Made by a program: the position numbers and the translations under genes
Notes under the pieces: model-generated
What the model was told of the DNA's origin: nothing
The model's database searches: none
What the model saw: the letters and a program-made list of their open reading frames with translations, nothing else
NCBI GenBank assembly: GCA_029262835.1
Contig: JAJCYQ010000033.1
Span: 1 to 51,301, forward strand
Source: Bacteroidota bacterium
Lineage (GTDB): Bacteria > Bacteroidota > Rhodothermia > Rhodothermales > UBA10348
Direction: 5' to 3'
DNA: 51,301 nt
In this document: positions 2 to 37,535 of the stretch, piece after piece
Numbering within the stretch: position 1 is the stretch's first letter
Layout of the letters: each line of letters begins with the position of its first letter

Positions 2-1489
2 TTTAGTCTCCGCTTCGCGCTTGACGGGGCGCGCGGCGGGGCGGCCGCCCACGACGCCGGCATCATCCACCGGGACATCAAGCCCGGCAACGTGATGGTG
101 ACAGACGCCGGCTTCCTGAAAATCCTGGATTTTGGGCTCGCCAAAGTGCAGGATGTGACCATGACGGTGGGCGAGGTGTCGATTGGTACGCTGGCCTACA
201 TGAGTCCGGAGCAGGCCCAGGGGGCGCCGGTCGACGTGCGCACGGACCTGTGGGCTGTGGGCGTGGTGCTCTACGAACTGCTCGCTGGAAAGCGGCCGTT
301 CGATGGCCCATACGACGCGGCCATTCTGTACGCGGCCGTGAATACCGATCACGAAGATGTCACGACATGGCGGGAAGATGCGCCGGAGGTGCTTGCCCGG
401 ATCGTCGACAAACTGCTTCAGAAATCGCCCGATTCCCGCTACCAGACGGCGCACGAACTCGTGACGGATCTGCGCGCGATGACGGGGGAGGGGGACCTCT
501 CGGGGCTGTCTGTGATTTCGCAGCTCTCGGGGATGCAGGCGGCCGGTATGCAGGTGGGAGGCGCGCCGGGCGGTGCAGGGCAAGCGGGTAGTGCGGGGCT
601 TTCGGACGCCGGAGCGTCGCAAGCGGGTGGTGCGGGGCAAGCGGGTAGTGCGGGGCTTTCGGATGCCGGAGCGTCGCGGGGGCTGCTGTCCCGGCACGGC
701 TACCTGCGCCTTGGTGCGGCCGCTGCTGGCGCACTGATCGTTGGCGCGGGTGCCTATTTTGCCCTCTCTGGCGGGGGCGCGGGCTCGGCCGAGAAGGCCG
801 CCATCGAGGCCTCGGCGCGTGAACAGGCTCGGACCTTCCTCGACAACGGCATTGCCTTTCTTCGCGATGGCAAGTACGAGCTCGCGCTCGCTGAACTCGA
901 GCGCTCGCTCCAGTACGATTCGACCTACGGCCCGGCCTGGAGCTCCCTCTCCGGCGTCTACTACCAGCTCAACGACTATGGCGGCGCCATCCGCGCCGCG
1001 AACCGGGCCATCGCCTTCGACGGCGAGAACACGACAGCCTATTACAACCGTGGGCTCGCTGAGGCGGGCCAGGGGCAGACGGATCGTGCCATGGGGACGC
1101 TTTCCCGTGCTACGGAGATCGACAGCACGTTCACGCAGGCCTACAGCGCCCTCGCGGACCTTCTCATTGAATCGGGACGCGCCGCCGATGCGCTGAATGT
1201 TCTTGAGCGCGCGAGCCGTACGGCGTCAACGTCGCTCCGGTTCATTGTGTACAAGAACCAGGGCAAGGCGTACATGGCGCTTGGCGAACCCGCCACAGCG
1301 CTCGACTACCTGCAGCCCTCGCTTCGCCTCAATCCCGACTGGTCAGAAACCGTGCTGCTCATGGCACGCGCCTATGACGCACTGGGCGATGACGGACAGG
1401 CGCGCCCCCTCTGGCAGCGTTACCTCGAACTCGAAACCCGCCCAGCGCTCCGGGCCGAAGCCCGGCAGCGCCTTGAGGGCGGATCCTGA
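2..1489 (+). CDS. Membrane-anchored Ser/Thr protein kinase with TPR sensor domain (5' truncated)
   Basis: The reading frame is open from base 2, so the start and the ATP-binding N-lobe lie outside the window. Seen: the catalytic loop HRDIKPGN (about 71-94), the DFG motif (about 128-136), an SPE in place of APE, and the rest of the kinase C-lobe to about 490. A low-complexity Gly/Ala/Ser linker (about 530-680), a hydrophobic segment (about 712-770) and TPR-like repeats to the end follow. Family knowledge: such Hanks-type kinases are membrane proteins that phosphorylate Ser/Thr, with the C-terminal part acting as a sensor or scaffold. The TPR part should lie outside the inner membrane. It converges on the giant gene, with only 16 bases between stops and no clear terminator. 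The first 15 or so codons fit the kinase consensus poorly, which may reflect a weak contig end. The kinase call is firm; the target is unknown. Confidence 0.9.
   Translation, partial: FSLRFALDGARGGAAAHDAGIIHRDIKPGNVMVTDAGFLKILDFGLAKVQDVTMTVGEVSIGTLAYMSPEQAQGAPVDVRTDLWAVGVVLYELLAGKRPFDGPYDAAILYAAVNTDHEDVTTWREDAPEVLARIVDKLLQKSPDSRYQTAHELVTDLRAMTGEGDLSGLSVISQLSGMQAAGMQVGGAPGGAGQAGSAGLSDAGASQAGGAGQAGSAGLSDAGASRGLLSRHGYLRLGAAAAGALIVGAGAYFALSGGGAGSAEKAAIEASAREQARTFLDNGIAFLRDGKYELALAELERSLQYDSTYGPAWSSLSGVYYQLNDYGGAIRAANRAIAFDGENTTAYYNRGLAEAGQGQTDRAMGTLSRATEIDSTFTQAYSALADLLIESGRAADALNVLERASRTASTSLRFIVYKNQGKAYMALGEPATALDYLQPSLRLNPDWSETVLLMARAYDALGDDGQARPLWQRYLELETRPALRAEARQRLEGGS
572..677. repeat. 57-bp tandem duplication in the kinase linker
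   Basis: Bases 572-620 recur at 629-677 with two mismatches, giving a 57-bp (19-codon) period. The unit encodes a Gly/Ala/Ser-rich linker between the kinase and the membrane segment. The period is a multiple of three, so copy number can change without breaking the frame. Confidence 0.9.
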
Positions 1490-33856: not shown

Positions 33857-36094
33857 CTATCTTCGGAGAAGGGCGACCGGCAGGCGGAAGGTTGTCTCTC
33901 CGGGGCTTGTGACGGTTATTTCCACCACGTACGGACCGGCCGGGAGCAGGGTACCGTCGTCCCGGCGCCCGTCCCAGGACAGTGTCTCGGGCCCGTGGAC
34001 AAGCAGTCCCCGAGACACGCGTCGAACGATGTGTGCGTGCAGGTCGCGAACCACGATGCGGACCACGCGAGGCCCCTCGCCAGGCGGATTGTACAGGTGG
34101 ATCAAGGTCTCGCCGCCAAGTTCCGGATGCTCTGGATAGAAGGAGGTGGGAGAGAGGTGCGCCGATGGGCGATCCGAATCCGCGTCTGTTGGGGGCGGCG
34201 TGTTTTCGTTGCCGTGTTCGGGGCTGTCCGTGCTACCGGGAGATGCACCGCCCTGCGCTGTTGACGTTGTCCAGGGAGCGAAGCCGGTACGCGTGTGCAC
34301 CCGCACCAGAGAGCGCCCTTTTCCAGAAATGATGGACGGGTGGTGATTGTCCGGCGTATACGTGTCGTGCGCCAGAACCGTATGATCCCGTGCGTGGAGG
34401 GTGAGGGAGCGGCCGCTGTTCAAAAGACCGAGGGAGCGGCGAACAGGGAGTGTCAGCACGGCCGAAGGCGTGCCCGGCCAGATATCGCGGAGTGTGCCTG
34501 CCGGGTTTTCCGTCCCGGATCGATGGGAGGGAATCTGGAATGCCACGACCGTCGCGCCGGGTGCAACGAGAACCGGTTGATACCCCAGCCGCAGGGTGTC
34601 GGACGTACCCCGCTCGCTGATTTCCCACGTCATGAAGGCACCAAAGAGCGATACGGGTGCTTCGCTGCTGTTTGTCCATTCCAGGAATTCAATTTGGTCG
34701 ACCAGGCCATCGGAAGGATCGGTGAGCGGATCGTACAGCACTTCGGTCATGGTGAGGGCATGGGCCACGGGGTCTGGATGCTGGGTTTGCCGGAGCGCTG
34801 CTGCCGTGTCTTCGCCAGGAGAGCTGGGTGGGAATAGAGACGATGCCCAGTCGGCGGGGCCGGGCCCCGTGCGGACGAGTGATCGGTCCGTGTGGCTGCG
34901 GAACCTGGGATCTTCCATGTCGGCGGAGACCATGATGGAGTCGAGCACCGAAGCCGACACGCCATCCGTGCGGAGGACCAGCGTCTGACCACTGGTCGGG
35001 ATGCTCCTCTCGAGGGTCAGGATCTGGCCTGGATGCACGAGGTGCGCGGCCAGTGGACCGGCGCTCCGAATGGGCGCTGAGCTGTCTGATGTATCGTGTA
35101 TGCGAACGTGCCGAAGCGAAATATGCCGGTCCGACTGGACCAGGATTTCGATGAAATCCGGACTCCCGCGTAGCAGGACCTCCGTTATGAGCAGGTCGCC
35201 AGCCACAGGCGCGCCGTGCACGGGGTGGGATGACGGGGGCGCGGTGTTTCCGGTCGGGTCCCGGAGCCCGGAGACGTGGAGTTGCTCTCCGAAAAGTGGC
35301 GAGGCAAGACGAACATCGGTCTCCGTGAACAGATGGGTCGGGACGGGATTTCCCGGCACCGAAGTGGGGCCGGTTGCGCCGGCGCCGGAAACAAGAATTT
35401 CCAGACGGCGCACATCCTTTGGTAGCAGGGGCTCCGAGAAGTAGAGTCGAATGACAAGGCTGTCGAGTTGCTCAACGCCTGTTATCGAGGGTGCCGCTCG
35501 ATCGATCTCGAAGACGGTATTCACGCGTCCGGGCGATCCCACTCCGTCCGTGGGCAACGACCAGTTGGCCGCGGCATGCGCCGGAAGGAATGTCTGCACG
35601 CGCTCGAGACTGCGCCCCCGCTCCACCTGGCTGGACGTGTACCCCAGGTGCTCGCTCTGGCGCCCGTCGAGCGCCAGAGCGAGCGAGTCGCCCCCATTAT
35701 TGAGTGCGGGCCATGGTCGCAGCTCCACCGTGCGGCGCGGAGCGGGCAGCCCGGGAAACGTGCGGCGGTACCACTCGCTGAACAGTGTTGTGTCGGGCGT
35801 CACAACGACGAAATCTCCGGGCATAAGCGGGGTGGCTTCGTCCGGAAGCATGCGCCACGCCGACGTGGCGTCGCGCAGGGCGAGTCGGCCGGGTGCAAGA
35901 GGGCTCGCGCCGCCGATGGCAAGTTCAACATACTCCGGATCGCCAGATGCCGGAGCGGCCATAAGCTCATTGAGCTGCACGCGCGGAGCCAGCACCTGCC
36001 GTGCCTGCGATTCGGGCGCTGAGCAGGCGACAAGGAGTGCACTCGAAAACAGGCAACAGACCATGCGGGACATGACATCAGGGAGTTTGTTCAC
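33857..36094 (-). CDS. Lamin-tail-domain lipoprotein with Ig and FlgD-like modules
   Basis: 745 residues if the GTG at 36094 is used; ATG codons at 36073 and 36064 are also possible and keep the signal. The lipobox is VACS near residue 24. Three lamin-tail-like domains (about 40-165, 299-400, 449-560) share the pattern ...NE(L/V)(M/L)..P......(E/D)(Y/F)(V/I)E(L/I). A SbsA-type Ig follows the first. The end (about 660-745) matches a FlgD Ig-like fold with WDGRRDDGTLLPAGPYVVEI. Such proteins are common in the Rhodothermia-Bacteroidetes group; no enzymatic residues are recognised. It carries both a lipobox and a secretion-style end domain, so the anchor is uncertain. Confidence 0.8.
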   Translation of the reverse strand: MNKLPDVMSRMVCCLFSSALLVACSAPESQARQVLAPRVQLNELMAAPASGDPEYVELAIGGASPLAPGRLALRDATSAWRMLPDEATPLMPGDFVVVTPDTTLFSEWYRRTFPGLPAPRRTVELRPWPALNNGGDSLALALDGRQSEHLGYTSSQVERGRSLERVQTFLPAHAAANWSLPTDGVGSPGRVNTVFEIDRAAPSITGVEQLDSLVIRLYFSEPLLPKDVRRLEILVSGAGATGPTSVPGNPVPTHLFTETDVRLASPLFGEQLHVSGLRDPTGNTAPPSSHPVHGAPVAGDLLITEVLLRGSPDFIEILVQSDRHISLRHVRIHDTSDSSAPIRSAGPLAAHLVHPGQILTLERSIPTSGQTLVLRTDGVSASVLDSIMVSADMEDPRFRSHTDRSLVRTGPGPADWASSLFPPSSPGEDTAAALRQTQHPDPVAHALTMTEVLYDPLTDPSDGLVDQIEFLEWTNSSEAPVSLFGAFMTWEISERGTSDTLRLGYQPVLVAPGATVVAFQIPSHRSGTENPAGTLRDIWPGTPSAVLTLPVRRSLGLLNSGRSLTLHARDHTVLAHDTYTPDNHHPSIISGKGRSLVRVHTRTGFAPWTTSTAQGGASPGSTDSPEHGNENTPPPTDADSDRPSAHLSPTSFYPEHPELGGETLIHLYNPPGEGPRVVRIVVRDLHAHIVRRVSRGLLVHGPETLSWDGRRDDGTLLPAGPYVVEITVTSPGETTFRLPVALLRR

Positions 36095-36184
36095 TCCCTC
36101 GACCCACGGGTCGGCGCGGCATAACCTGAATCGGGCCTACCAGGGCGATCGGCCTTTGCTGCGGCGCGTTCTGCAGGGCATTTG

Positions 36185-36321
36185 GTCCTTGGACCGTGGC
36201 CCGAAGAACGCGCCGCAGAAAGGCCCGCTGCGGGGGCCTGAAGAGCGGGAAATTCTGTCCTTGGACCGTGGCCCGAAGAACGCGCCGCAGAAAGGCCCTC
36301 TGCGGAGGGCCTGAAGAGCGG
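36185..36321. repeat. Two-copy intergenic repeat with nested hairpins
   Basis: Copies 36185-36248 and 36257-36321 are nearly identical, with period 72. Each begins around a GTCCTTGGACC palindrome and includes an AGGCCC...GGGCCT hairpin. An inverted partial copy, GGCCTTTGCTGCGGCGCGTTCT (36151-36172, one base off), pairs with 36205-36225. The span lies between the M20 gene (ending 36327) and the lamin-tail gene (starting 36094), both on the minus strand. It looks like a duplicated terminator cassette or a small dispersed element. Confidence 0.85.
36287..36312 (-). terminator. Probable terminator of the M20 gene
   Basis: On the minus strand AGGCCCTC-CGCA-GAGGGCCT forms an 8-bp perfect stem with a 4-base loop (36293-36312) about 15 bases after the M20 stop, followed by TTTCT. 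The short T-run makes it a moderate call. A weaker second copy (stem 36221-36226 with 36234-36239) lies downstream. Confidence 0.55.
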
Positions 36322-36326
36322 CCGGC

Positions 36327-37535
36327 CTACGCCGGGGCGGTATTGCGCGCGACCTGTTGGAGGGCCCGCTTCATGATTTCCGCCAGCATACGCGACGTCA
36401 TTGGAATGGCCGCTTCGTCCACATCAAAGCACGAGTCGTGCAGTGGGTGGGAGGTAGCCGGGCCGTTCGAGGTCCCGACCCGAAGCAGCATTCCGGGTAC
36501 GTGCTGCAGGTAGTGGGCAAAATCCTCTCCTCCCATGCTGGGGCGCGGTATCTCAAATATTGCATCGGGTCCGTGCGTGTCCATGAGAGCGTCCCGGACA
36601 AGCGATACCAGTTCCGGTGCATTGTATACGGGAGGGGAGCCGATATCGAACTCCACATCGACCTGGGCACCGTGCATCCGGCCAATCGCTCGGGCGGTAT
36701 GCTCCATACGTTCCTGAAGTACACGCCGTTCGTCGTTGGAAATACACCGAACTGTACCCCCGATCTCCGCGCAGGCAGGAATCACGTTGAACGCCTCGCC
36801 TCCGGTCATCCGGCAAATGGAGATGATGGCCGTGTTGCGGGCATCGGACTGTCGGCCTACGATCTGGTAAAGGACCGCCATGATCTGGGACATGATCCAG
36901 ACCGTATCGGTGCTCTGGTGCGGTCGTGCTGAATGCCCACTCGCATGCCCCCGTACCCGGATCGTGAAGCGATCGGCCGATGCCGTGGCCGGGCCGGAAA
37001 TCAGCCCGTAGCAGCCGGTGGACAACGTAGGATCCACGTGCGACGCGAAGACAGCCGTTACCCCGTCCAGGACGCCGTCTTCGATCATGGCCGGTGCGCC
37101 ACTCGGAATACCTTCCTCATTAGGCTGGAAGAAGACACGCACGGTTCCAGGAAGCGCTTCCCGTTCTTCGTTCAGTACGAGCGCCAGTCCGACAGCCATG
37201 GCACTGTGGGCGTCGTGGCCGCAGAGGTGGGCTACGCCGTCGACCGTCGATCTATAGTCCACATTTTTTTCGTCCTGCGTTGGAAGCGCGTCGATGTCCG
37301 AGCGGTAGGCGATGACCGGACCCGCCGCGTCGCCGACGATGTCGACGTAGAGTCCCGTTCGCGCAAGTGGGCCGTGGACCTCCAGGCCGTGCATCTCCAG
37401 TACCTCCTGGAGATAGCGGTGCGTGTGTACTTCATGGAATCCCACCTCTGGATACCGGTGCAGATGCCGCCGGACCTTTTGCAGCAGGGTGTCCAGGTCT
37501 TCATTCAGCAGATGGGCGGGGGCTGTCGTTGTCAT
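36327..37535 (-). CDS. M20 family amidohydrolase/peptidase
   Basis: 402 residues. Metal-site motifs of the M20D type are present: LCGHDAHSA (about 107-115), QPNEEG, a later HVDP and GGEDFAHYL near the C-terminus. The dimerisation lid motif GHASGHSARPH is intact. The family removes acyl or amino-acid groups from amides such as N-acetyl amino acids, hippurate or auxin conjugates; the substrate cannot be set. It follows the VWA gene by 10 bases in what looks like an operon with it and the antiporter. Confidence 0.92.
   Translation of the reverse strand: MTTTAPAHLLNEDLDTLLQKVRRHLHRYPEVGFHEVHTHRYLQEVLEMHGLEVHGPLARTGLYVDIVGDAAGPVIAYRSDIDALPTQDEKNVDYRSTVDGVAHLCGHDAHSAMAVGLALVLNEEREALPGTVRVFFQPNEEGIPSGAPAMIEDGVLDGVTAVFASHVDPTLSTGCYGLISGPATASADRFTIRVRGHASGHSARPHQSTDTVWIMSQIMAVLYQIVGRQSDARNTAIISICRMTGGEAFNVIPACAEIGGTVRCISNDERRVLQERMEHTARAIGRMHGAQVDVEFDIGSPPVYNAPELVSLVRDALMDTHGPDAIFEIPRPSMGGEDFAHYLQHVPGMLLRVGTSNGPATSHPLHDSCFDVDEAAIPMTSRMLAEIMKRALQQVARNTAPA

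Follow-up and report, generated by a model that had tools for sequence, protein, structure and literature searches.

The window, a 51,301-bp stretch of DNA, is one whole contig (C33) of the draft genome G000, which comprises 3.45 Mb in 103 contigs. Two co-directional genes on its minus strand frame the region considered here: a gene for an M20 family peptidase (36327-37535, stop codon at 36327-36329; PF01546, E 6e-39) lies upstream and a gene for a lamin-tail-domain protein (33857-36094; PF00932, E 2e-10) lies downstream. The 232-bp gap between them carries a tandem repeat and an inverted repeat, and its core is a near-perfect palindrome of 78 bp at 36150-36227, to which no strand is assigned. 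The outer arms of this palindrome (36150-36172 and 36205-36227) form an outer stem of 23 positions with 20 Watson-Crick pairs, one G-T pair and two mismatches, and enclose a tip that is itself paired. The asymmetric tip (36173-36204, plus strand) reads GCA / GGGC / ATTT / GGTC / CTTG loop / GACC / GTG / GCCC / GA. From the outer stem inward, an unequal internal loop (GCA/GA) precedes a 4-bp stem (GGGC/GCCC), followed by a second unequal loop (ATTT/GTG), another 4-bp stem (GGTC/GACC) and the tetraloop. This order corresponds to the conserved tip pattern GGGC-ATTT-GGTC-nnnn-GACC-GTG-GCCC.

Folded as DNA, the palindrome is more stable than 200 of 200 shuffled sequences (z -6.9 and -7.8 for the two strands). 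The whole 232-nt gap folded as RNA is likewise better than its shuffles (z -4.3 and -5.4), and the z-score of the half-copy region described in the next paragraph is -1.5. In a palindrome scan across the window the element obtained the top score (16.0) and one other place, at 35650-35684, scored 14.5; among three Markov controls, which here and in the following scan preserve dinucleotide content only, two contained nothing scoring 13 or more and the third contained palindromes of 14 and 13. A scan of 410 kb of the same genome (L124-L143 and L026) yielded 24 long palindromes versus 2 in the dinucleotide control, several of them with perfect arms of 17-19 bp and spacers of 37-71 nt (L124 14815, L130 9025, L133 19310, L142 19577). 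A near-identical 91-bp stretch with inverted ends, possibly the end of an insertion sequence, occurs on two contigs (L124 41-131 and L143 8078-8168). Elsewhere in the window, a 57-bp repeat at 567-677 that appeared similar at first look is an in-frame coding minisatellite whose protein was named by eye as kinase-like/TPR; a second in-frame repeat, of 18 bp at 2310-2384, encodes a KKSDKS-type sequence in a 3812-aa open reading frame.

The palindrome is accompanied by a tandem duplication (36185-36321, no strand) with a period of 72-73 bp and 1.9 copies, each unit of which contains one palindrome arm, part of the tip and a small AGGCCC/GGGCCT hairpin. The second unit thereby includes a half copy of the palindrome (36257-36298, no strand), made up of one arm and the distal tip portion, the opposite arm being absent; all of its 42 bases are identical to the full copy. 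The small hairpin lies on the minus strand at 36221-36239, where it overlaps the outer arm of the palindrome, and again at 36293-36312, where it has a stable 8-bp stem and is separated from the M20 stop codon by 14 bases. A first-pass annotation had described this region as two near-identical units of 64-65 bp. Two direct copies are indeed present (36173-36236 and 36245-36308, 89% identity over 64 nt), both contain the GTCCTTGGACC palindrome (36185-36195 and 36257-36267) and the small hairpin, and the reported inverted partial copy is real, with unrefined arms (36150-36180 and 36197-36227) that are 81% complementary. The true period is nevertheless longer and the units are not equivalent: one is the full palindrome and the other is one arm plus a partial tip, so that the main feature had been under-read. 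The same annotation had correctly placed a hairpin shortly after the M20 stop codon and had proposed a duplicated terminator. In a terminator scan of 35900-36600, neither small hairpin obtained an intrinsic-terminator score, as the T-tract required by the scan is lacking, and the one terminator-like site lies elsewhere, at 36441-36429; the terminator proposal is thus left with no support beyond the shape of the hairpin.

Further copies were sought at increasing taxonomic distance. With a 197-bp region as query, a second copy was found in the same genome on contig C3 (91% identity over 66 bp, E 6e-20), and the remaining matches there, at 21 places, all had E-values of 0.09 or weaker. Across 60 genomes including its own, matches at E 1e-3 or better were confined to the own genome and the congeners G001 and G003; matches in G037 and G047 (E 0.005-0.009) were excluded from this count. 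When up to three mismatches were allowed, the tip pattern occurred at eight places in three of the four genomes of the genus, corresponding to seven full copies and one half copy, and read-backwards controls gave no matches. Two of these places lie in G000, four in G001 (one of them the half copy), two in G003 and none in G002. An order-wide search found the tip in 3 of 114 genomes, none outside the genus, and one match in the control. Scanning GTDB contigs yielded six loci, five in assemblies of G001 and G003 and one in Streptacidiphilus. The latter (L048 about 245-280) is an exact tip pattern beside a gene that, read by eye, is presumably rplL, and was judged a chance match. Neither a phage nor a plasmid origin was borne out: there was no phage match and no exact tip pattern in viral contigs, and plasmids provided only matches of 21-27 nt in 18 records. 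Nothing in Rfam 15 reached the gathering threshold, the six matches with E-values up to 5 all being below it and the best of them being microRNA models far below, and the literature searches made here returned no paper on the element of this genus.

A covariance model (R1) built from six copies, of which the window palindrome is one (E 4e-15), was searched over 244 genomes of the class with stricter filters and 21 first-look candidates scored per genome. The scan recovered its six members and a held-out seventh (G001 C12, E 2e-9), together with tandem half copies beside the copy on G001 C41 (E 0.04-0.06). Apart from one borderline match in G026 (E 0.095), left out of the counts, it returned no additional full copy in these 244 genomes, a scan which misses weak members. 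It passed over a hairpin at the ribonucleotide reductase (RNR) site of G000 that later scored 26.7 bits, and further diverged members may likewise have escaped it. The element has so far been seen only in this genus, which the class scan suggests but does not prove for genomes elsewhere.

All seven full copies are intergenic, and each faces at least one 3' end (7/7). Besides the window copy after the M20 gene, copies follow the gene for a two-domain E1 dehydrogenase at an orthologous site in G001 and G003, a gene for a Cys/Met PLP enzyme in G001 and the class II RNR gene in G001. The remaining two, on G000 C3 and G003 C26, lie between convergent frames in the region from HNH to RNR, the C3 copy being flanked by an unassigned open reading frame of 324 aa and one of 82 aa. 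The genus is represented by draft genomes with 20 to about 100 contigs each; three of the seven copies lie within 250 bp of a contig end (the C22 copy has its left flank missing there) and a fourth within 1.5 kb, and the assemblies may therefore lack some copies. It had been proposed that many copies in the genome would indicate an element and none a local duplication. With two full tip-pattern copies the outcome falls in between, and it is resolved only by comparison across species.

At the M20 site this comparison is direct. The order of the M20 and lamin-tail genes is kept in G001, G002 and G003, and the site is empty of the palindrome in all three congeners. The distance between the M20 stop codon and a motif conserved in the next protein is 355 nt in the window versus 226 nt in G003, 219 nt in G001 and 173 nt in G002. 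At the E1 site, the interval to the PLP-enzyme gene carries the hairpin in G001 and G003; the gaps in G000 and G002, which run to a convergent gene, measure 38 and 3 bp and are hairpin-free, leaving the site empty in two of four genomes. A survey of 3' flanks in the genus and family used 14 M20, 14 E1 and 4 RNR loci (out of 30, 27 and 4 fetched; three flanks were shorter than 300 nt). Palindromes scoring 11 or more were found at 1 of 14 M20 and 3 of 14 E1 loci; three of these four belong to the present element, and the remaining one, in G010, is another repeat. Other genera also have short tandem or alternating-inverted repeats of different kinds immediately behind M20 genes (L064 in G013, L065 in G004) and E1 genes (L095 in G014, L100 in G010). 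In the HNH-RhuM interval, the copies on G000 C3 and G003 C26 agree at 70 of 70 bp; the DNA immediately adjoining them gave no blastn alignment, and the nearby HNH-gene region is 80% identical. The stretch from the HNH to the RNR gene is a variable island (G000 C3 about 64-80 kb, in L026 and L142; G003 C26/C33), which in G000 includes an HsdR gene of a type I restriction system along with further extra DNA; the interval is short in G003. Behind RNR lies a Fic gene in G001 and, as judged by eye, also in G003. Because the intergenic flanks of the congeners are too diverged to define the ends of the element, a target-site duplication cannot be read at these sites.

The outer arms change together. 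Their covariation was assessed in a six-copy alignment (A2) with five distinct related rows, which was preferred to one with uneven ends (A1) and one in which the seventh copy is placed with a gap (A3). Among 16 outer pairs, five have changed on both sides and none on a single side; of 120 cells, 99.2% are paired (one unpaired), a proportion that falls to 33-47% when the partner is slid by one to three columns. The covariation score was reached by none of 500 shuffles, the count of two-sided pairs by 3 of 500 and the count of further pair types by 25 of 500. Over all seven stems, 1 of 149 positions is a G-T pair and two are mismatches. All three belong to the window copy, which accounts for the one-sided difference seen in two of the 21 pairwise comparisons. 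Between G001 and G003, 4 of 19 pairs differ at the orthologous E1 site, each on both sides, with no single change.

A similar pattern is found at the RNR site, where the hairpin of G000 is related to that of G001 (alignment score 49 versus a shuffle maximum of 42) and was matched by R1, searched against the RNR loci of the family, at E 0.002 and 26.7 bits. In a hand alignment of 12 positions guided by the pairwise alignment, the two hairpins show one two-sided difference, none that is one-sided, and a 2-bp insertion that both arms carry in mirror image. The G000 hairpin keeps the architecture and not the letters of the tip, so the tip is not strictly constant; used as a DNA query, it returned no second copy in the four genomes of the genus. 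What remains at this site in G003 aligns only with the right half of the hairpin in G001, and the alignment of the G002 hairpin to the others is no better than shuffles. Fold-back template switching predicts that the arms change in concert, that indels are mirrored and that G-T intermediates are scarce, and the data, a small sample, would fit a rewriting of the arms by this process. According to one study, template switching is a maker and possibly a maintainer of perfect stems, the evidence for such maintenance being circumstantial in the authors' own judgement (PMC8794818).

In other genera of the family, the class II RNR gene is followed on its 3' side by a conserved element some 80 nt long (L173-L191; for example L176 about 1369-1455, minus strand). 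It consists of a stem with a CATCAGT-like loop, the linker ACGGGGAGCG and a terminator-like hairpin with a GGTGGG-containing loop, behind which a T-run stands in most cases. In 23 of 24 RNR loci surveyed (a partial locus in G008 was left out), the hairpin was recognised by eye at 19 of 19 loci outside the genus and at none of the four within it, a strict pattern finding 10. Ten sequences show two-sided changes in 13 of 22 predicted pairs. None of five loci searched matched Rfam at gathering, one giving weak sub-threshold matches, and R1 did not match this element in the RNR loci of the family. It is a candidate for an undescribed RNA.

Taken together, these observations favour, with a probability of about 60%, a small DNA palindrome of about 64-78 bp, low in copy number and to date seen in this genus alone, that inserts between genes near 3' ends. 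Copies at several unrelated sites and their presence or absence at orthologous sites between congeners show that the element is dispersed. The same comparison shows a near-constant asymmetric tip and outer arms that remain paired as their sequence changes, and it supports both mobility and a joint evolution of the arms. A tandem half copy stands beside the full copy in the window and, similarly arranged, in a congener: in G001, half copies of arm plus tip lie in tandem adjoining full hairpins at a contig end. The earlier proposal of an inserted REP-like or MITE-like element is in its essentials supported by the dispersed copies and by a site empty in three congeners, though the element is not abundant; that of a local duplication is right in that a tandem duplication happened, and what was duplicated is a half-palindrome plus the adjoining small hairpin. 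Among the points against the preferred reading, the tiny copy number is unlike that of a thriving mobile element, and the E1 pattern, with presence in G001 and G003 and absence in G000, requires one loss or two gains.

Under the reading as a mobile palindrome, the tip with its unequal internal loops would be the part recognised by an enzyme that acts on hairpins or single-stranded DNA and moves the element. The tip might also let a nascent strand fold back during replication and copy its own arm, and such template switching would rewrite both arms together and keep them paired. Stalling of the polymerase at the tip, followed by slippage, could give rise to the tandem half copy; slippage at this point is proposed since the end of the duplicated unit falls immediately beyond the tetraloop, and the tandem half copies of the window and of G001 would both fit it. 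Where it is transcribed, the very stable 3' hairpin may shield the upstream mRNA or act as an attenuator of the gene that follows. Among ten neighbouring proteins compared with Pfam, none falls in a transposase family and no transposase could be tied to the element, although the nearby contig ends would leave space for an autonomous relative. A more speculative extension, which at present is rather doubtful, describes a self-priming palindrome whose conserved tip would be moved by a hairpin-recognising enzyme other than Y1/RAYT and would let replication rewrite both arms at each site. As fold-back would remake the arms together at every site, the tip would then be the heritable element.

If the element were instead a structured RNA of 3' untranslated regions, acting as an mRNA stabiliser or as a processing or protein-binding site, selection on the RNA would explain the pairing and the dispersal would be incidental. 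The copies in the window and on C22, C41, C46 and C12 all lie downstream of a gene with the same orientation of the tip relative to it, the loops are conserved, the arms show compensatory changes and the gap folds strongly as RNA. However, G-T pairs, at 1 of 149 positions, are almost absent and the six-copy alignment holds no pair changed on one side only. The hairpin is missing at the orthologous M20 3' end of three congeners and the E1 3' end of two, the C3 and C26 copies between convergent reading frames have an ambiguous parent transcript, and no Rfam model matches near its threshold. This explanation is possible, though rather unlikely.

A recombination site or hot spot of island insertion, working in the manner of an integron attC site, would let foreign genes enter beside the hairpin. 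It would account for the HNH-RhuM interval of G000, which has extra DNA on both sides of the hairpin, and for the 70/70-identical hairpin in the short interval of G003. The foot of an integron attC site carries the boxes RYYYAAC ... GTTRRRY. These boxes were not found in the seven copies: GTT...AAC is present at the foot in C3 and C12 and slightly inside it in C22, C26 and C41, and neither triplet appears in the window copy or C46. Where they occur the triplets are therefore in the order opposite to attC, the conserved part is the tip and not the foot, and the other copies adjoin housekeeping-type genes, all of which makes a hot spot improbable. Duplication of a transcription terminator alone, with no element involved, accommodates the real 72-73-bp duplication and its stable hairpin after the stop codon, but it is highly improbable and is rejected as the main reading, as it is contradicted by the copies dispersed over other sites and species and the rest of the repeat is a half-palindrome beside a hairpin with no T-tract.

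The mobile palindrome favoured here can be compared with several described systems. RAYT transposases are a frequent explanation for short palindromic repeats. A search for the Y1 transposase family (PF01797; RAYT, Y1_Tnp) found no match in the four genomes of the genus, and control matches in 5 of 14 reference genomes including Escherichia coli. The REP tag GTAG/CGTC or its complement was found within 6 nt of the foot in none of the seven elements, one of which (C22) has its left flank missing. The element resembles REPs and REPINs, as the literature describes them, in being an intergenic palindrome mainly downstream of genes, between co-directional or convergent genes, and possibly in forming inverted doublets that fold into one hairpin; in REPs, mismatches and bulges of the stem can be recognition determinants (PMC3733652, PMC3116915, PMC8266576). 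In contrast to the high copy number of REPs, at most three full tip-pattern copies are present per genome, and the element has an outer arm of 18-26 bp and a conserved tip rather than a conserved foot. With regard to REPINs, its halves are inverted copies with systematic tip differences and no tag. On the grounds of tag, transposase and copy number, membership in the REP/RAYT system was rejected and the element is classed as REP-like, not REP.

With MITEs it shares a short inverted-repeat sequence that occupies some sites and is lacking where those sites have orthologues, but neither an autonomous parent element nor a target-site duplication was identified. Subterminal hairpins of the IS200/IS605 family offer a parallel in that single-strand hairpins with unpaired bases serve as recognition sites (PMC8266576), although Y1_Tnp (PF01797), as noted, has no match in the four genomes. 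Hairpins maintained by template switching (PMC8794818) likewise have perfect stems, multi-base compensatory changes and a retained loop, but reside in RNA genes, whereas here the tip is dispersed between sites.

The element therefore has the form and location of a REP with neither the tag nor a Y1 transposase nor a high copy number. Its arms, with two-sided changes, few G-T pairs and a mirrored insertion, would provide a compact natural case for testing template switching at bacterial hairpins, and the element may equally serve as a case for finding the enzyme that moves such hairpins.
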